Below, piece by piece: positions 56,288 through 64,000 of a stretch of 64,000 nt of DNA. The notes under the pieces are model-generated. The model had not been told where the DNA came from. It saw nothing but the letters and a program-made list of their open reading frames with translations, and made no database searches. Within the stretch, counting starts at the first letter, position 1; each line of letters starts with the position of its first letter. Position numbers and translations under genes: made by a program. This DNA is from Flavonifractor sp. An112. GTDB taxonomy: Bacteria > Bacillota > Clostridia > Oscillospirales > Oscillospiraceae. Location: positions 62,001-126,000 of the forward strand of contig NZ_NFLU01000005.1 in NCBI RefSeq assembly GCF_002161085.1. The letters run 5' to 3'.

Positions 56288-57637
56288 GTGGGCAAATCAG
56301 ACCTGTCAGCACTGCCCCGGATGGACACATTGCTGGCCAGTCCGGCCCTGGTGGACAGCGGCCTGCCCCGCTCCGCTCAGAAGGCGGGGGCCAACCGGGT
56401 GCTGGACCAGCTGCGCCGTGCCATTTGGGCGGGAGAGCCTCAGGTGCCTGAGCTGCACATCCTGGCCCAGCGGGCCCGGCAGGCGGCAGAAGAACTGGCC
56501 CGGCCCGGCCTGCGCCGGGTGGTCAACGCCACCGGCGTTGCCCTCCACACCAATCTGGGCCGGGCCCCGCTTAGCCGAAGGGCGGCGGAGGCGGTGGCCC
56601 AGGCGGCGGAGGGCTACTCCAACCTGGAGTACGACCTGACCGCAGGCAAGCGGGGCAGCCGCACCGGCCGGGTGGAGGAGCTGTTACAGGAGCTCACCGG
56701 GGCGGAGGGAGCCTTTGCGGTGAACAACAACGCCGCGGCGGTGCTGCTCATGCTGTCTGCCCTCACTCCCGGCATGGGAGTGGCCATCTCCCGGGGAGAG
56801 CTGGTGGAGATCGGCGGCTCCTTCCGGGTGCCCGACGTGATGGCCCGCAGCGGCGCCAAGCTGGTGGAGGTGGGGGCCACCAACAAGACCCGTCTGTCCG
56901 ACTACCAGCGGGTGTTGGAGAGCGGGGAGGCCCAGGCTCTGCTGAAGGTTCACCCCAGCAACTTCAAGGTGGTGGGTTTTACCCAGAGTGTGGAGGTGGA
57001 GGAGCTGGCCGCTCTGGCGGCCAGCTATCAGGTCCCCCTGCTGTGCGACCTGGGCAGCGGCGCGCTGGGCCCCGGCCCCTGGCCCCAGGACTACCCCACT
57101 GTGGAGAAGTGGGCGGCAGCTGCCGACGTGGTATGCTTCTCCGGGGACAAGTTGTTGGGCGGACCCCAGGCGGGTATCCTGGTGGGCAAGGAGGAGGCCG
57201 TCAGACGGCTGAAAACCGACCCCCTGGCTCGCGCCCTGCGGCTGGACAAGCTGTCTCTGGCGGCCCTGGAGGCCACCCTGCGGGACTGGCGGGACGGGGT
57301 GTCCGTCCCTGCCCGGGCCATGCTGGAGACCCGGCCCCGGGACTTGCGGCAAAAGGCTGAGAGATTGGCCGCTCTGCTTACGCCCTTCTGCCCCTGTGAG
57401 GCGGTGGAGACCGCCGGAGAGGCGGGAGGCGGTACCCTCCCCGGGGAGGAACTGCCCTCCTGGGCGGTGGCCCTGGACCCGGCGGAGGAACTGGAGGTCT
57501 TCCTCCGGGGGTGGACCACCCCCATTCTGGGGCGCATCCACAAGGGAAAGCTGCTGCTGGATGTGCGCACCCTGCTGCCGGGGGAGGAAAATATCATCCG
57601 GGATGCCCTGGGGGCGTGGAAAGGAGAACGGCCATGA
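56288..57637 (+). CDS. selA: L-seryl-tRNA(Sec) selenium transferase
   Basis: 449 residues from a GTG start behind AAGGAGG; an extended -10 (TGGTATACT, 56248-56255) lies just upstream. The PLP-enzyme motifs are clear: RRVVNATGVALHTNLGRAPLS at about residue 80, NNNAAAVLL, GGSFRVPDVMARSGAKLVEVGATNKT, LCDLGSG and CFSGDKLLGGPQAGILVG with the PLP lysine. It converts Ser-tRNA(Sec) to Sec-tRNA(Sec) with selenophosphate. It overlaps selB by four bases, and tRNA(Sec) follows, so the whole decoding set is one cluster. SelD is not in the window. Confidence 0.96.
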   Translation: MGKSDLSALPRMDTLLASPALVDSGLPRSAQKAGANRVLDQLRRAIWAGEPQVPELHILAQRARQAAEELARPGLRRVVNATGVALHTNLGRAPLSRRAAEAVAQAAEGYSNLEYDLTAGKRGSRTGRVEELLQELTGAEGAFAVNNNAAAVLLMLSALTPGMGVAISRGELVEIGGSFRVPDVMARSGAKLVEVGATNKTRLSDYQRVLESGEAQALLKVHPSNFKVVGFTQSVEVEELAALAASYQVPLLCDLGSGALGPGPWPQDYPTVEKWAAAADVVCFSGDKLLGGPQAGILVGKEEAVRRLKTDPLARALRLDKLSLAALEATLRDWRDGVSVPARAMLETRPRDLRQKAERLAALLTPFCPCEAVETAGEAGGGTLPGEELPSWAVALDPAEELEVFLRGWTTPILGRIHKGKLLLDVRTLLPGEENIIRDALGAWKGERP

Positions 57638-59169
57638 TCCTGGGCACCGCGGGCCATGTGGACCACGGCAAGACCGCCCTGGTGAAGGCCCTCACCGGGA
57701 TGGACACCGACCGGCTGGCGGAGGAACGCCGCCGGGGCCTCACCATCGAGCTGGGCTTTGCCCCCCTGACCCTGCCGGGCGGGGAGATGGTGAGCATTGT
57801 GGATGTGCCCGGCCATGAGAAATTTGTGCCCACCATGCTGTCCGGCTGTGCCGGTATGGATTTGGTGGTGCTGGCGGTGGCTGCCGACCAGGGCCCCATG
57901 CCCCAGACACGGGAGCATCTGGCCATCCTGTCCCTGCTGGGCCTGCGGGGGGGCGTCATCGCCCTCACCCGGGCCGACCTGGGCGTCAAGCCGGGGGTGG
58001 AGGAGCAGGTACGCGCTCTGGTAAAGGGCACCTTCCTGGAGAATGCCCCCATCATCCCCACCTCGGTGGTGACAGGGGAGGGGTTGGATGAACTGAAGAG
58101 AGCCCTGGCTGAGCTGGTCCAAAAGACGCCGGAGCGGTCGGACCGAGGAGACTATCGCCTCCATGTGGACCGGGTCTTTTCGGTGGCGGGCAGCGGCACG
58201 GTGGTCACCGGCACCCTCACCGGCGGCCCCCTCCGCCGGGGGGACAGGGTGCGCCTGTGGCCGGGGGACAGGATGGCCCGGGTGCGGGGCCTCCAGAGCC
58301 ACGGTACCGATCAGGAGAAACTGGCCCCCGGCAGCCGGGCGGCGGTGAATCTGGCGGGGGTGGACCGTGGGGAGGTGTCCCGCGGGGACACCCTGGCCCC
58401 GGCGGAGGGGCTTACTCTCACCCAGCGGCTGGATATGGCCCTGAAGGTGCTGCCTCAGGCCCCCTATGCCGTCAAAAACAATTCCACCCTCCATCTCCAC
58501 CACGGCGGGCGGGCGCTGATGTGCCGGTGTATCCTGCTGGGCCGGGACAAGCTGGAGCCGGGAGAGGAGGGCTTTGCCCAGCTGCGGCTGGACCAGCCTC
58601 TGGCGGCTCTGCGGGGGGATCGGTTTGTAGTTCGCTTCTTCTCTCCGGTAGTCACCGTAGGGGGTGGGGTAATTCTGGACCTGGAGCCCCCCGCCAAGGG
58701 ACGGATGGACCCGGCCCGGCTGACCCGGCTGGCCGCCCTGGCGGCGGGGAAGGAACTGCCCCGCCCGGCGGAACCGGTCAGAGAAGCGCCGCCGCCCCCA
58801 GCGCCGGAAAGCGACCCGGAGCTGGAGGAGAAACTATGTGAGATCTACCGGGCTGCTGGACTGGAGCCCCCCGCCAACGAGGAGATAGAGCGGGCTTTCC
58901 CTGGTGGGGCCGCAGCCTGCCGCCGGGCAGGCAGAGCCCTGGCCGACCGGGGGGTGCTGACCCCGCTGTCCCCCAAGGTGCGGGCCTGGGGGGAGAGCTG
59001 CCTGGAGGCTCAGAGCAGAATGAAGGCCCGGTTTGGCACAGAAATGTTCACTCTGGCCCAGGCCAGGGACCAGTTGGGAGTTTCCCGCAAGTACGCCCTG
59101 CTGCTGCTGGAATACTGGGACCGGGTACGGATCACCCAAAAAATCGGGGAGGGGCGGAGATTTCTGTAA
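57634..59169 (+). CDS. selB: Selenocysteine-specific translation elongation factor
   Basis: 511 residues from the ATG overlapping the selA stop (ATGA). GTPase motifs: G1 GHVDHGKTAL, G2-side RGLTIELGFA, G3 DVPGHEKF, G4 TRAD in place of NKxD. Domains II and III follow (GSGTVVTGTL, the late RFFSPVVTVGGGVILD). Winged-helix repeats at the C-terminus bind the SECIS hairpin. At 511 residues it is shorter than the roughly 614-residue E. coli protein, so it has fewer or smaller winged-helix domains. It brings Sec-tRNA(Sec) to UGA codons. Confidence 0.96.
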   Translation: MILGTAGHVDHGKTALVKALTGMDTDRLAEERRRGLTIELGFAPLTLPGGEMVSIVDVPGHEKFVPTMLSGCAGMDLVVLAVAADQGPMPQTREHLAILSLLGLRGGVIALTRADLGVKPGVEEQVRALVKGTFLENAPIIPTSVVTGEGLDELKRALAELVQKTPERSDRGDYRLHVDRVFSVAGSGTVVTGTLTGGPLRRGDRVRLWPGDRMARVRGLQSHGTDQEKLAPGSRAAVNLAGVDRGEVSRGDTLAPAEGLTLTQRLDMALKVLPQAPYAVKNNSTLHLHHGGRALMCRCILLGRDKLEPGEEGFAQLRLDQPLAALRGDRFVVRFFSPVVTVGGGVILDLEPPAKGRMDPARLTRLAALAAGKELPRPAEPVREAPPPPAPESDPELEEKLCEIYRAAGLEPPANEEIERAFPGGAAACRRAGRALADRGVLTPLSPKVRAWGESCLEAQSRMKARFGTEMFTLAQARDQLGVSRKYALLLLEYWDRVRITQKIGEGRRFL

Positions 59170-59579: not shown

Positions 59580-59589
59580 CTGAAGTGAA

Positions 59590-59631
59590 AAAAGCGCTGG
59601 GCGCGGCCAAACGGCCGCGCCCAGCGCTTTT
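59590..59631. terminator. Strong bidirectional terminator
   Basis: The 19-bp perfect arms AAAAGCGCTGGGCGCGGCC / GGCCGCGCCCAGCGCTTTT have an AAAC loop. It lies between the convergent GNAT and AtuA-like genes. Confidence 0.9.
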
Positions 59632-59663
59632 TATGAGGGAAAATAGGGAGAAACAGGGAGAGA

Positions 59664-59963
59664 TCAGATCTCCATGTCCAGCAGGTAGGAGGACAGGCCC
59701 TTGCCGTGCATATCCACGGACAGGGAGCGGGTGACGCCGCCGCCCAGAGCGGCGTACATCACGAAGTTGAGGGCGTGGATGTTGGGCAGCTCATAGCGAA
59801 CCACCTCGCCCTTGACCATGCCCTTGAAGTGCTCCTTCACCTTCTCGGGGGTGACCTTCTCCTTGAGCAGGTCGTAGTCCTTGGGGTCGTAGGCGATGAG
59901 GGAGATGTTGGAGATGTTGCCCTTGTCGCCGGTACGGGAGTGTGCAATATCCCAGAGTTTCAT
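59664..59963 (-). CDS. AtuA-like small ferredoxin-fold protein
   Basis: 99 residues. WDIAHSRTGDKGNISNISLIAYDP and VVRYELPNIHALNFVMYAALGGGVTRSLSVDMHGKGLSSYLLDMEI match the C-terminal domain found fused to or beside AtuA (DUF1446) proteins. AAAGGAAG precedes the ATG. It is the last gene of the sigma-54-controlled operon, 27 bases behind atuA. It is probably the second subunit of the AtuA enzyme; the reaction is unknown. Confidence 0.82.
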   Translation of the reverse strand: MKLWDIAHSRTGDKGNISNISLIAYDPKDYDLLKEKVTPEKVKEHFKGMVKGEVVRYELPNIHALNFVMYAALGGGVTRSLSVDMHGKGLSSYLLDMEI

Positions 59964-59990
59964 AGCAAATGCTTCCTTTCTGTCCCAGTA

Positions 59991-61337
59991 TCAGACGGTG
60001 AAGATCTCGGCCTCGGGCTTGACGTCGTAGCGGCTCACCAGAATGGAGGCCACGGACACGATGTCCCGGGTGCGCTTCACAGCGCCGCAGCCGCCGGCGG
60101 GGCCGTTGGTGTACAGGGCCTCCACCTCATTGCCAATGATGTCAGCCTCAGCCTTGGTCTTGGCGCGGCCGGCCACCCGCACCCGCACCTCGCTGGGCTC
60201 CTGGTTGTACTGGTAGTCGGGGTTCCAGTACAGGCTGTTGCAGCCGATGAGGTCGAACTTCAGCTCCTCAAACACGTTGGGGGCCACCAGCTCCAGCCGC
60301 TCCTTCAGGATCTCCAGGGCCAGCTTGCCCCGGGCCACGCAGCCGGGACCGCCATAGCTGATCTCGCCGTCGCCGATGAAGCAGTCCTTGTAGCCGATGG
60401 AGCACTTGAAGGTCTCGGTGCGGGGCTTGCCGGTGATGCCCTCCACCTTCACCATATCCTTGCCGATCTCGGTAAACTTGATCTGCTTGCAGTCGGCCAC
60501 CACGTCGGGAGTCAGGTAGTTCTCAGGATCATGGATCTCGTAGCAGATCTGCTCGGAGCAGGTCTCCACGGTGACCTTGCCGCCGGCCTCAGGCACCTTG
60601 GTGACGAAGAAGGAGCCGTCCTCGGACACCTCAATGATGGGGAAGCCCAGGTGGCCGACGCCGGGCACGTCCTTCTTGCCGGGCTCGGCGAAGTAGCCGC
60701 CGGTGACCTGGCCGCCGCACTCCAGCAGGTGGCCCATGATGGTGCCCTTGCCCAGCTTGTCCCAGTCCTCCAGGGACCAGCCGAACTCGTGGATCATGGG
60801 GGCCATGAAGATGGCGGGGTCGGCCACACGGCCAGTGATGACCACGTCGGCGCCCATATCCAGGGCCTTCAGGATACCTTCCACGCCCATGTAGGCGTTG
60901 GCGGACACGATCTCGCCGCCCAGCTCCTTCAGGGGCTTGTGGTTCTCCCATACCTCGGTATCCATGTACTTGTCGATGACGGGCAGCAGGTCGTCGCCGG
61001 TGACGCAGGCGATCTTCATGCCGGTCAGACCGTGCTTGCGGGCGATTTCCACGCACTTCTGAGCAGCGGCCTGGGGGTTGGCGGAACCCATGTTGGTGAT
61101 GAGCTTCACCTTGTGCTGCCAGCACAGGGGAAGGGCCTTCTCCATGCGGTGCTCCAGCAGGCCGTTGTAGCCCTTGGTGGGGTCCTTCAGTTTGGCCTGC
61201 TGGCCGATGGCGATGGTGCGCTCGGCCAGGCACTCGTAGCTGATGTAGTCCAGATTGCCCTTCTCGATGAGTTCCAGGGAGGGCTCCAGGCGGTCGCCGG
61301 CATAGCCGGCGCCGCTGCCGATGCGGATGCTTTTCAT
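59991..61337 (-). CDS. AtuA family protein (DUF1446)
   Basis: 448 residues. IRIGSGAGYAGDRLEPSLELIEKGNLDYISYECLAERTIA is the family opening (GAGYAGDR), and ITNMGSANPQAAAQ, VVITGRVADPAIFMAPMIHEFGW and ECGGQVTGGYFAEPGKK are further signatures. It is named from acyclic-terpene use in Pseudomonas, but its biochemical role there is undefined, and in anaerobes it is found with organic-acid transporters. AAAGGAAG precedes the ATG. Its place between a CitMHS transporter and the AtuA-like protein suggests it acts on the imported acid or its CoA ester. Confidence 0.87.
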   Translation of the reverse strand: MKSIRIGSGAGYAGDRLEPSLELIEKGNLDYISYECLAERTIAIGQQAKLKDPTKGYNGLLEHRMEKALPLCWQHKVKLITNMGSANPQAAAQKCVEIARKHGLTGMKIACVTGDDLLPVIDKYMDTEVWENHKPLKELGGEIVSANAYMGVEGILKALDMGADVVITGRVADPAIFMAPMIHEFGWSLEDWDKLGKGTIMGHLLECGGQVTGGYFAEPGKKDVPGVGHLGFPIIEVSEDGSFFVTKVPEAGGKVTVETCSEQICYEIHDPENYLTPDVVADCKQIKFTEIGKDMVKVEGITGKPRTETFKCSIGYKDCFIGDGEISYGGPGCVARGKLALEILKERLELVAPNVFEELKFDLIGCNSLYWNPDYQYNQEPSEVRVRVAGRAKTKAEADIIGNEVEALYTNGPAGGCGAVKRTRDIVSVASILVSRYDVKPEAEIFTV

Positions 61338-61386
61338 ACAATGACTTCCTTTCTGACCAAAAAGGTGGATAGGTGAAGGGAATGGA

Positions 61387-62781
61387 TTAGATGGCGATGG
61401 CGCCAGTGATGAAGGCCACAGCCACCATCACCAGGGAGACCAGCCAGGCCAGGGGAATGGTCTTCTTCTGATGCTCGCCCAGATCTACGCCGGACAGACC
61501 CACCAGCAGGAAGGTGGAGGCGGTGAGGGGAGAGATGGGGAAGCCCACGGTCATCTGGCCCAGAATGGCAGCGCGGCCCACATCGGCGCCCACAATGCCG
61601 AAGCCCTGAGCGGTGGTGGCCAGTACGGGCAGCACGCCATAGTAGAAGGAGTCGGGGTCAAAGAGCAGGGAAGCGGGCATGGCGATGATGCCGATGATGA
61701 GGGGGAAGAACTGCCCCATGGAGTCGGGGATGATGGCCACCAGGGCGGTGGACATCTCGGAGATCATGCCGGTGCCCTGCATGATGCCGGTAAAGCAGCC
61801 GGCGGCAAAGAGCACGGAGCACATCATGAGGGCTTCCTTGGCGTGGGCGTCCACACGGGCCTTGGAGTCCTTCACGCGGGGGTAGTTGATGACGGTGGCC
61901 AGCACGTAGAACACCATGAACACCACAGCGGGAGCAAAGCCGGAGAACAGCAGGGAGATGATGGCAGCGATGATGAGGACGATGTTCACCCAGAACAGGT
62001 GGGGCCGCAGCAGGGCCTTCTGCTCGTCGGTGAGCTCCTGCTCGGTATGACCCACAGCCTGGAGAGCCACGGCGCCGATGCGCTTCTTTTCGCGGCTGCC
62101 CAGGAAGGCGGCGATGAGCAGCACACACACCATACCGGCCAGCACAGCGGGCAGGACAGGCATAAAGAACTCGGTGACGGTGGCCTCGGTGCCCTCCATG
62201 GTGGCCAGAGCGGTGTGGGCGCGGATGGTGGGGCCGCCCCAGGGCAGGATGTTCATGGTGCCGGCGGACAGGGCCACGATGGTGGCCAGGGTGGTGCGGC
62301 GCATACCCAGCGCGTCATACAGGGGGAGCAGGGCGGGCACGCAGATCAGGAAGGTGACGGCGCCGGAGCCGTCCAGGTGCACGATGGCGGCCAGCACAGC
62401 GGTGCCGATGCCGATCTTGATGGGATCGGTGCCCACCAGGTTCAGGATGCCCTTGATGATGGGACGGAAGGTGCCGGCATCGGTGAGAATGCCGAAGAAC
62501 AGGATGGAGAAGATGAACATAACGCCGGTGGCGGCCACCGAGCCGATGCCCTTGGAGCCGGTGATCATACCGCCCAGGGACTTGAAGTTGGCCACAAAGT
62601 CAACGACGCCCTGTGTGCCCTCCGGGGCACCCTCGGGAACCACGGCCATAAAGAAACAGGCGATGATGCCGGTGACCACAGGAACCACAATCAGGGCCAC
62701 CAGGGGGGATGCCTTCTTGGTCATGATGAGCACCAGCATGATCACAACCGTCAGGAATCCCAGGATTGCTAAAGGTGACAT
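61387..62781 (-). CDS. CitMHS-type organic-acid transporter
   Basis: 464 residues, start MSPLAILGFLTVVIMLVLIM at 62781 behind AGAGGAGG. Twelve or so helices. Motifs such as SILFFGILTDAGTFRPIIKGIL, HLDGSGAVTFLICVPALLPLYDALGMRR and the re-entrant-like MNILPWGGPTIRAH fit the CitM/citrate-Mg symporter branch of the ion transporter superfamily. CitM carries divalent metal-citrate complexes; the substrate here could be citrate or another di- or tricarboxylate. It is first in the operon, 60 bases downstream of a perfect sigma-54 promoter. Confidence 0.86.
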   Translation of the reverse strand: MSPLAILGFLTVVIMLVLIMTKKASPLVALIVVPVVTGIIACFFMAVVPEGAPEGTQGVVDFVANFKSLGGMITGSKGIGSVAATGVMFIFSILFFGILTDAGTFRPIIKGILNLVGTDPIKIGIGTAVLAAIVHLDGSGAVTFLICVPALLPLYDALGMRRTTLATIVALSAGTMNILPWGGPTIRAHTALATMEGTEATVTEFFMPVLPAVLAGMVCVLLIAAFLGSREKKRIGAVALQAVGHTEQELTDEQKALLRPHLFWVNIVLIIAAIISLLFSGFAPAVVFMVFYVLATVINYPRVKDSKARVDAHAKEALMMCSVLFAAGCFTGIMQGTGMISEMSTALVAIIPDSMGQFFPLIIGIIAMPASLLFDPDSFYYGVLPVLATTAQGFGIVGADVGRAAILGQMTVGFPISPLTASTFLLVGLSGVDLGEHQKKTIPLAWLVSLVMVAVAFITGAIAI

Positions 62782-62841
62782 GAACGATACCTCCTCTTGA
62801 TTTCGACGGCCCTCTCTCCGACCGCCGTTGCCTCTGGATAA

Positions 62842-62857
62842 AGCAAGACATGTGCCA
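62842..62857 (-). promoter_or_regulatory. Sigma-54 (-24/-12) promoter of the CitMHS-AtuA operon
   Basis: On the minus strand TGGCAC, five bases (ATGTC), TTGCT: an exact match to the sigma-54 consensus TGGCAC-N5-TTGCW. It lies 60 bases upstream of the transporter's ATG and in the right direction, next to a sigma-54 activator gene. Confidence 0.85.
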
Positions 62858-62944
62858 AATGCGGAATAAAGGCGAAAAAAAGGGGAAAGCCCTTGCGGCA
62901 CAGTGCCTTTCTTGCTTTGCTGCGCCAGAGGAAGGGAGATGGGA

Positions 62945-63054
62945 ATTCTAATATTCTGGAAATCAGGAGGGGATGGCGGAGAGAGAAGGGACGCTCAGAG
63001 GAGACCGCTCAACGCATTCTAATATTCTGGAACAACATTCCAGTATTTTAGAAT
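62945..63054. promoter_or_regulatory. Three upstream activator-type repeats
   Basis: ATTCTAATATTCTGGAA occurs at 62945-62961 and 63016-63032, and in reverse with two mismatches at 63038-63054. The last two form a 39-bp inverted repeat. They lie 90-200 bases upstream of the sigma-54 promoter, the normal place for enhancer sites of the adjacent activator. Confidence 0.75.
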
Positions 63055-63055
63055 T

Positions 63056-64000
63056 CTACTTGCCGAGCTTATTGTAGAGGCTGGCCAGGGAGATGCCCAG
63101 CTGGGCGGCGGTCCGCTTTTTCCCCTCCAGGGAGAAGCCGTTTTTCTCCAGCAGGTTGAGAATGACCCGCTTTTCAAAGGCGCGGGTCCGCTGGGCCAGG
63201 GTGAGACCCACGTCCTCCTGCTGGTGGACCAGGTCGCTGGGAAGGGCCTCCTGATTGATCACCCCGGAGGGGGTGAGGTAGGCGGAGAACTCCAGCACAT
63301 TGCGCAGCTCCCGCACGTTGCCCGGCCAGCTGTGGGCCTGGAGGCAGGCTACCGCGTCCTCGGTAAGCCGGAAGGGGCGGCGCAGCTTGTGGGAGAAATC
63401 CTCCAGAATGGCCTGGGCCAGGGCGGGGATGTCCCCCGGCCGCTCCCGCAGAGGGGGAATATGGAGGGGGAAGGTGCTCAGCCGGTAGTACAGGTCCTTG
63501 CGGAACTTGCCGGCGGCCACATAGGCGGGCAGGTCGGCGTTGCAGGCGGCGATGACCCGCACGTCCACCGCCACCTCTTTCAGGCCGCCCACGGGGCGGA
63601 TGGTGTGCTCCTGAAGGACCCGCAGCAGCTTGGCCTGGAGCCCCACGTCCATCTCGGAGATCTCGTCCAGAAAGAGGGTGCCGCCGGAGGCCGCCTCGAA
63701 GAGGCCCATCTTGCCCCCCCGCTTGGCGCCGGTAAAAGCCCCCTCGGCGTAGCCGAAGAGCTCCGATTCCAGCATATTGGCGTTGAAGTTGGAGCAGTTG
63801 ATGGCCACAAACACTCCGTCATGCCGGGGACTGGCGTTGTGGATGGCTTGGGCGTACAGCTCCTTGCCGGTACCGCTCTCGCTCTCCAGCAGCACGGTGG
63901 CGTCAGTGACGGCGATCCGCTGGGCCAGATCTTTCACCCGGGCTACCGCCGGGGTCACCGCCACGATGTCGTCAAAGGTGTACCGGGCGCCGTTGGCCTT
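63056..64000 (-). CDS. Sigma-54-dependent transcriptional activator (5' end outside window)
   Basis: 314 residues are visible, the frame staying open to the window edge. The AAA+ domain has Walker A ESESGTGKEL, the sigma-54-contacting loop GYAEGAFTGAKRGG, Walker B GGTLFLDEISEMD and the arginine finger region FRKDLYYRLSTFPLHIPPLRERPGDI. A Fis-type HTH closes the protein (RTAAQLGISLASLYNKLG). The sensory N-terminus is not visible, so the signal is unknown. It should bind the repeats at 62945-63054 and open the promoter at 62842. Confidence 0.95.
   Translation of the reverse strand, partial: KANGARYTFDDIVAVTPAVARVKDLAQRIAVTDATVLLESESGTGKELYAQAIHNASPRHDGVFVAINCSNFNANMLESELFGYAEGAFTGAKRGGKMGLFEAASGGTLFLDEISEMDVGLQAKLLRVLQEHTIRPVGGLKEVAVDVRVIAACNADLPAYVAAGKFRKDLYYRLSTFPLHIPPLRERPGDIPALAQAILEDFSHKLRRPFRLTEDAVACLQAHSWPGNVRELRNVLEFSAYLTPSGVINQEALPSDLVHQQEDVGLTLAQRTRAFEKRVILNLLEKNGFSLEGKKRTAAQLGISLASLYNKLGK

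Follow-up and report, generated by a model that had tools for sequence, protein, structure and literature searches.

A sigma-54-type CitMHS-AtuA operon in Flavonifractor sp. An112 as a candidate catabolic unit for 3-hydroxy-3-methylglutarate

What reaction might an AtuA protein carry out when its gene lies behind that of a citrate-type carrier? AtuA genes are common, yet they are named only for terpene use. The question arises at one end of a 64,000-nucleotide stretch of Flavonifractor sp. An112 (RefSeq assembly GCF_002161085.1, contig NZ_NFLU01000005.1, positions 62,001 to 126,000), which we call the window. There, four minus-strand genes encode, in order, an activator, a CitMHS-type carrier, AtuA, and a protein of 99 amino acids (aa) (Table 1). 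A preliminary description of this DNA had recognized one sigma-54-type unit of three same-strand genes, which gene calls and profile searches bore out. It had also argued for a di- or tricarboxylic or branched acid, not a terpene, as the substrate. We agree with this and narrow the candidate to 3-hydroxy-3-methylglutarate (HMG). A sigma-54 unit is ordinary and the protein families are known; what is new is that the free-acid branch of AtuA is given a definite reaction that can be tested. The gene families, the fold, and the layout and conservation of promoter and repeats were computed. Our reading is that the operon is an HMG catabolic unit with an acetate-releasing lyase, and we put its probability at roughly 0.6.

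In the proposed pathway, a PAS-containing activator would bind three repeats about 90 to 200 bp upstream and open the -24/-12 promoter on a signal, probably the substrate itself or a related compound. The CitMHS carrier would import HMG. AtuA and the PF23544 protein encoded by the last gene would then form a lyase of the citramalate lyase (CmlAB) fold and take the carboxymethyl arm off as acetate. This would leave acetoacetate from HMG, or acetoacetyl-coenzyme A (acetoacetyl-CoA) if HMG were first made into a CoA ester. A 3-oxoacid CoA-transferase and a thiolase encoded elsewhere in the genome could pass acetoacetate to acetyl-CoA or to butyrate formation. We infer the reaction, the substrate, and the later steps from the evidence that follows.

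AtuA, its small partner, and citramalate lyase

The predicted model of AtuA (pLDDT 90.1) found its best match among PDB structures in chain 9evf_A (E 8.9e-25, TM 0.71, 17% identity), and the next match was far behind (E 1.2e-4, TM 0.15). The entry 9evf is described as "Citramalate lyase - ADP - pyruvate complex." The model of the 99-aa protein, which was folded alone (pLDDT 86.8), also had its best match in this entry, in the small subunit CmlB (9evf_B; E 3.8e-5, TM 0.71, 19% identity; next match, E 1.6e-2). That two separate queries converge on a single two-subunit complex is the strongest piece of evidence in this analysis. In a sequence search of the PDB, the match of AtuA to "citramalate lyase subunit A" was only weak. 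When AtuA was compared by profile with CmlA-type proteins (L174 and L138 excluded), the match reached E 6.4e-21 over 397 columns, and the motifs GRxxDPA, LEC, and YExxDP are common to both. CmlA, too, belongs to PF07287 (68 bits).

These models suggest that AtuA and the PF23544 protein are most likely a two-subunit acetate-releasing C-C lyase, and that the two would form a complex. The lyase class itself we regard as likely. By analogy with the relatives, the common chemistry would be departure of a carboxymethyl arm as acetate from the carbon bearing the hydroxyl group. Nucleotide use by the AtuA lyase is also conceivable because the solved relative holds ADP and pyruvate. The preliminary description had called the small protein AtuA-like. 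That label did not hold, as in profile searches the protein matched only PF23544, a family separate from AtuA.

CmlAB (PDB 9erq and 9evf; E. coli ECs_0760 and ECs_0759) shares with the pair described here a large AtuA-family subunit and a small subunit of about 100 aa. However, the neighbors of CmlA are genes for glutamate mutase, methylaspartate ammonia-lyase, and a fumarase, whereas here the partner is CitMHS and there is no methylaspartate context in the window. Searching the genus for DUF4387, the family of the CmlB subunit, gave matches nowhere, controls included, and was uninformative.

The second comparison is with AtuA of Pseudomonas, and it revises the earlier view that AtuA proteins have no defined reaction. 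Passages of PMC4847356 list Pseudomonas AtuA with enzymes "characterized or tentatively identified" and name it an acetate lyase that acts on 3-hydroxy-3-isohexenylglutaryl-CoA. Going by that description, it has the same name and family label as the Flavonifractor protein, and its proposed reaction is removal of acetate from a 3-hydroxy-3-alkylglutaryl compound. It differs in having a CoA-ester substrate and geranyl-CoA carboxylase as a partner. The protein is also longer there, with 615 aa for the Thauera homologue (same passages), whereas here the protein is split and comes with a carrier and no carboxylase. Neither geranyl-CoA carboxylase nor other atu genes were found alongside the three-gene operon, where neighboring open reading frames (ORFs) were named by eye. 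Terpene breakdown was rejected as a function because there is no carboxylase context at the operon. Together with its conserved switch and the genes beside AtuA in relatives, the locus gives the free-acid branch of AtuA a concrete, assayable reaction apart from terpene breakdown.

Neighboring genes and the choice of substrate

Clues to the product come from genes beside AtuA in relatives. In five loci, an AtoD-type CoA-transferase gene directly follows the small gene: L063, L096 (C. thailandense), L097 (C. beijerinckii), L099, and L112. Among 650 non-core genes in 81 loci there were six AtoD genes, five of them in this slot (binomial 5.9e-5; such values treat related loci as independent). We saw the same arrangement once more, in L169, in a sample of the class with 391 genomes and, our own genome aside, eight strong AtuA matches. 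A thiolase gene follows AtoA in L096, L099, L112, and L169. Some of these assignments were checked with profiles (AtoD, AtoA, and thiolase in L099; AtoD in L063, L112, and L169), and the others rest on sequence similarity. The AtoD proteins of L099 (318.3) and L169 (316.0) score above the cut-off of 315 for the acetate CoA-transferase alpha subunit. The paralogue L037 has an ADC-family gene (PF06314, 74.1 bits) next to it. A 3-hydroxyacyl-CoA dehydrogenase cluster occupies the downstream slot in four of its six places (L102 profile-checked). The CoA-transferase, thiolase, and ADC-family neighbors point to acetoacetate as the product. The Flavonifractor genome has a thiolase-AtoD-AtoA cluster on contig C3 (L184:4717-7401) and a second AtoD-AtoA-like pair on contig C39.

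A different neighbor suggests the carbon skeleton. A gene for degradative HMG-CoA reductase (TIGR00532; 430.7 and 475.5 against a cut-off of 259.95) adjoins AtuA and the small gene in L124, from the archaeon Salinigranum, and in L175, from a genome of the same class as ours. In L176, a sister of L175 (100/99), the order is AtuA, small gene, family III CoA-transferase, and CitMHS. Acetoacetate as product and a methylglutaryl skeleton would together indicate HMG. HMG is a methyl analogue of citrate, with one carboxyl swapped for a methyl group, which would explain a citrate-type carrier. With moderate confidence, we prefer HMG to citrate or citramalate as the substrate.

Several results weigh against this reading. 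The Flavonifractor operon has no acetoacetate gene beside it, and AtuA of the relatives that supply the acetoacetate evidence is 33 to 85% identical to its own. In most of the 81 loci, the downstream slot is taken by other genes or is empty (no gene was called there in 9). In the class sample, AtoD-AtoA-thiolase, HMG-CoA reductase, family III CoA-transferase, and a CocE neighbor were each found at one of the eight strong matches, and in L170, L171, L173, and L174 the only neighbors of AtuA from the reference list are CitMHS, the small gene, or an activator. No AtoD-AtoA pair directly follows AtuA and the small gene in 12 annotated plasmid regions, several of which have carboxylase or acyl-CoA contexts. 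The AtoD proteins of L063 and L112 were assigned only at subfamily level, where acetoacetate and 3-oxoadipate are not separated, and the ADC-family gene beside L037 scored only 22.5 bits against the NCBIfam acetoacetate decarboxylase (cut-off, 150). In the AtuA tree, the loci with HMG-CoA reductase fall on another branch, and the substrate there may be the CoA ester. A swap in two genus genomes (G006 and G010; loci L030 and L036), where an SSS symporter and an M20 dipeptidase-like gene replace CitMHS (L030:4172-7053), is not obviously explained by HMG. In some rumen loci (such as L077 and L080-L083), the repeats are kept and a promoter match was absent from the 77-locus scan described below. 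Finally, the small subunit of CmlAB is DUF4387, whereas here it is PF23544, and the solved relative acts on citramalate. The comparison of PF23544 with CmlB/DUF4387 by hhalign was not significant (E 0.024, probability 2%), so the link between the small protein and CmlB comes from the structural comparison.

The carrier is annotated as a citrate:proton symporter, and a name alone is no proof of citrate use. It does score above the family cut-off, and citrate has the same acetate-releasing geometry as HMG. The operon could therefore encode a citrate lyase without a prosthetic group, with CitMHS importing citrate and AtuA plus the small protein yielding acetate and oxaloacetate in place of CitDEF. 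None of the 20 genus genomes had CitF over the cut-off (one match, in G005, stayed below it; as a control, the search matched CitF in three named genomes, over the cut-off in one), as would suit such a replacement. However, CoA-transferase, thiolase, ADC-family, and HMG-CoA reductase neighbors would be unexpected for oxaloacetate (the neighbors are partly annotated, and oxaloacetate decarboxylase was not searched for). The operon partners in relatives point instead to an analogue of citrate, and we consider citrate itself unlikely. Citramalate, converted to acetate and pyruvate after import as by CmlAB, seems quite improbable. Both subunits do match the citramalate lyase complex best, and the homology of AtuA and CmlA extends across the whole length. 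Even so, CmlA-type proteins form a separate supported branch of the tree (100/100; alignment of 31 rows, thinned at 85% identity, L114 excluded). It is on that branch that methylaspartate ammonia-lyase adjoins the gene, in 3 of 7 CmlA-type rows (L132, L179, and L181). Glutamate mutase E was not found in the 20 genus genomes, a weak negative as no control passed the cut-off, and pyruvate would need no 3-oxoacid CoA-transferase and thiolase.

Another branched 3-hydroxy acid might instead give a different 3-oxo acid, as with a 3-hydroxy-3-alkylglutarate or a 3-oxoadipate precursor, possibly freed from a conjugate by CocE or M20 enzymes. A CocE/NonD-cluster hydrolase gene is an immediate neighbor of the AtuA unit in 12 of its 13 occurrences (L044 and L107 profile-checked), and the copies in L044-L046 start with signal-peptide-like stretches (by eye). 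These CocE neighbors and the M20 gene both hint that the acid may come in conjugated form, as an ester or an amide. The M20 and SSS swap and the subfamily-level AtoD assignments also fit such an acid. Against it, the occurrence of HMG-CoA reductase next to AtuA in two distant genomes pins down a methyl-substituted glutaryl skeleton for a related branch, and we rate this reading as rather unlikely.

If HMG is the substrate, the operon would give HMG a bacterial fate and would tie the breakdown of plant conjugates to acetate and butyrate formation. A tentative extension, possible rather than probable in our view, is that AtuA and the PF23544 protein are a thioester-free, nucleotide-using lyase for free HMG that perhaps conserves energy through an acyl-phosphate. 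Together with CocE, it would be a gut or rumen route that strips HMG esters from plant glycosides and ends in acetate and butyrate, under sigma-54 control. A flax lignan oligomer is a dietary HMG ester according to the passages seen of PMC12471293. The literature matches listed, together with passages of PMC4682846, PMC4847356, and PMC12471293, contained no link between AtuA and HMG and no CitMHS-AtuA operon. No paper matched citramalate lyase with AtuA, and AtuA with mevalonate matched one unrelated paper only.

Mevalonate degradation consists of degradative HMG-CoA reductase and HMG-CoA lyase. The pathway proposed for Flavonifractor would converge on the same HMG chemistry, but from free external HMG, and TIGR00532 was not found in its genome. 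TIGR00532 was over the cut-off in 3 of the 20 genus genomes (G003:C39, G005:C120, and G008:C209; the G005 copy is interrupted by one internal stop), and mevalonate breakdown may occur in some members of the genus.

The sigma-54 switch

The sigma-54 regulatory anatomy of the operon is well supported. The activator gene runs past the window, and completed from the adjoining sequence (L009:7057-8400, minus strand) it encodes 447 aa. Profile searches assigned it a single input domain, PAS (PF13188; 21.9 bits, marginally above the cut-off of 21.8), an AAA+ Sigma54_activat domain (213.9 bits), and a Fis-type helix-turn-helix domain (PF02954; 25 bits, cut-off 22). The GAFTGA motif was read directly in the protein. 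Thus, the activator is as the preliminary description had it, with GAFTGA and a Fis domain, and the exact TGGCAC-N5-TTGCT promoter and three matching 17-bp repeats that it listed were also located (Table 1). In its AAA+ domain with GAFTGA, Fis domain, upstream repeats, and -24/-12 promoter, the unit resembles those of the NtrC, PrdR, and PrpR kind. It differs in that the activator fragment in the window was below the cut-off in all 25 NCBIfam families shown of 28 matched, and the target operon was unmatched among the literature listed.

Table 1. Features of the operon and its upstream region (window positions)
Feature	Position	Strand	Details
Terminator-like hairpin, 20-bp stem	59589-59632		Minus-strand fold -43.2 kcal/mol, z -9.8
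AtuA_ferredoxin-like small protein, 99 aa	59664-59963	-	PF23544 AtuA_ferredoxin, 132.1 bits
AtuA, 448 aa	59991-61337	-	PF07287, 537.2 bits, cut-off 22.8
CitMHS-type carrier, 464 aa	61387-62781	-	TIGR00784, 404.8 bits vs cut-off 259.7
-24/-12 promoter TGGCAC-N5-TTGCT, TGGCACATGTCTTGCT	62842-62857	-	0 mismatches
Enhancer-like repeat	62945-62961		Centre about -122 from predicted start
Enhancer-like repeat	63016-63032		Centre about -193 from predicted start
Enhancer-like repeat, 76% identity to the other two	63037-63053		Centre about -214 from predicted start
Sigma-54 activator, C-terminal 314 of 447 aa in window	63056-64000	-	Open at window edge

The promoter and the three repeats all lie within the 274-bp gap between the activator and CitMHS genes. 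The promoter is the sole -24/-12 site with zero mismatches in the window, and transcription is predicted from the -12 position to start near 62831. The exact pattern occurs at two places in the 2.96-Mb genome, this operon and an activator locus on contig C12. At one mismatch or less the pattern is common, with 70 genome places against 46 for the reversed pattern. The repeats are near-palindromes of the form TTC-N10-GAA, with start-to-start spacings of 71 and 21 bp. A degenerate 16-bp repeat pattern has three exact matches in the genome, all at this operon, and three further ones elsewhere at one mismatch; the reversed control had one place at one mismatch or less. Because the pattern was derived from these very repeats, its uniqueness is partly by construction, and conservation in relatives is the independent test. 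The rpoN gene (PF04552) is on contig C11 and was found in 18 of the 20 genus genomes, including this one. We judge it very likely from the sequence that transcription of the operon depends on sigma-54, and the activator is predicted to bind the repeats.

AtuA is present in 13 of the 20 genus genomes (Flavonifractor sp. An112 included), at 14 loci. Upstream of AtuA, a -24/-12 site no more than one mismatch from the pattern is present at all 14, and two or more repeats at the same tolerance are present at 13. The exception, the paralogue L037, has a different activator and an exact -24/-12 promoter. The preliminary description had made its claim depend on conservation of the promoter and repeats in relatives, and both are conserved. 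In a wider set of 77 loci, 42 had a -24/-12 site of that stringency (0.67 expected) and 42 had two or more repeats (0.01 expected), with expected values from shuffles that keep base composition only. This set excludes L055, L060, L063, and L079, which have less than 300 bp upstream, and L089, an incomplete locus with AtuA uncalled that is also outside the 81-locus neighbor counts. Because gene starts were called with a home-made ORF program, some upstream distances are off, which is how the L037 promoter was missed in the 77-locus scan. Promoter or repeat matches extend to Sedimentibacter (L091), Clostridium (L097 and L111), and Spirochaetota (L095). A chance promoter is ruled out by the genome-wide counts together with this conservation.

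The genome has three strong sigma-54 activator genes. At the C12 locus (L011:2989-8984), the other exact -24/-12 site lies between an activator gene and further ORFs that by eye are amidohydrolase-, M20 peptidase-, and carrier-like, and so forms a second complete switch. The third activator gene (L010, C1:118000-134000) has seven one-mismatch -24/-12 sites, six of the TGGCAT type, within about 8 kb around it. It is close to a thiolase-like gene and, by eye, an iron-type alcohol dehydrogenase-like gene.

Spread of the operon and adjoining genes

Relatives of the operon were found in 136 stretches by a two-peptide screen of a species-level genome collection, and 162 plasmid records matched this AtuA. 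Of 94 loci analyzed, 13 came from a first genus fetch that overlaps the later set. Gene calls recovered AtuA at 93 of the 94, the small protein at 86, a sigma-54 activator at 70, and CitMHS at 67. Gene clusters in the relatives were built from BLASTP links, with profile checks on some members only. The preliminary description had proposed a comparison within Oscillospiraceae, and this proved incomplete: the CitMHS-AtuA-small set is also in two Spirochaetota loci (L094 and L095) and on plasmids of Proteobacteria and Bacteroidota. We sampled 14 regions of the 162 plasmid records, 2 of which were unannotated. Five of the 12 annotated regions carry the set, from Azospirillum, Roseomonas (two records), Mycetohabitans, and Spirosoma, and they span Alphaproteobacteria, Betaproteobacteria, and a Bacteroidota. 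In three of the five (Azospirillum and both Roseomonas records), a LysR gene lies next to the operon. The remaining seven regions have other carriers or CoA-ester contexts. Therefore, the enzyme set is general, with sigma-54 control seen in Bacillota and Spirochaetota loci. Where L030 and L036 swap the carrier, the activator, repeats, and promoter are of the same kind as here.

The hairpin closes the operon just beyond position 59664, where the reported stretch starts, and it has no entry in the consensus terminator scan. ORFs around the operon were named by eye as GNAT-like, SelB-like, SelA-like, and ABC transporter. The SelA- and SelB-like ORFs, which suggest selenocysteine incorporation, are at 56288-59169, just past the terminator.

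Two further observations concern regulators near AtuA in relatives. In L098, L114, and L117, a short PAS-like protein (135 to 177 aa as called) that by eye resembles the N-terminal part of the activator is encoded upstream of AtuA, and the AAA+ part is absent from the same called gene. Just downstream of the AtuA operon of G001 (L026:10165-12579), a DAPG-hydrolase-family gene (PF18089, 277 bits) is divergent from a second sigma-54 activator gene.

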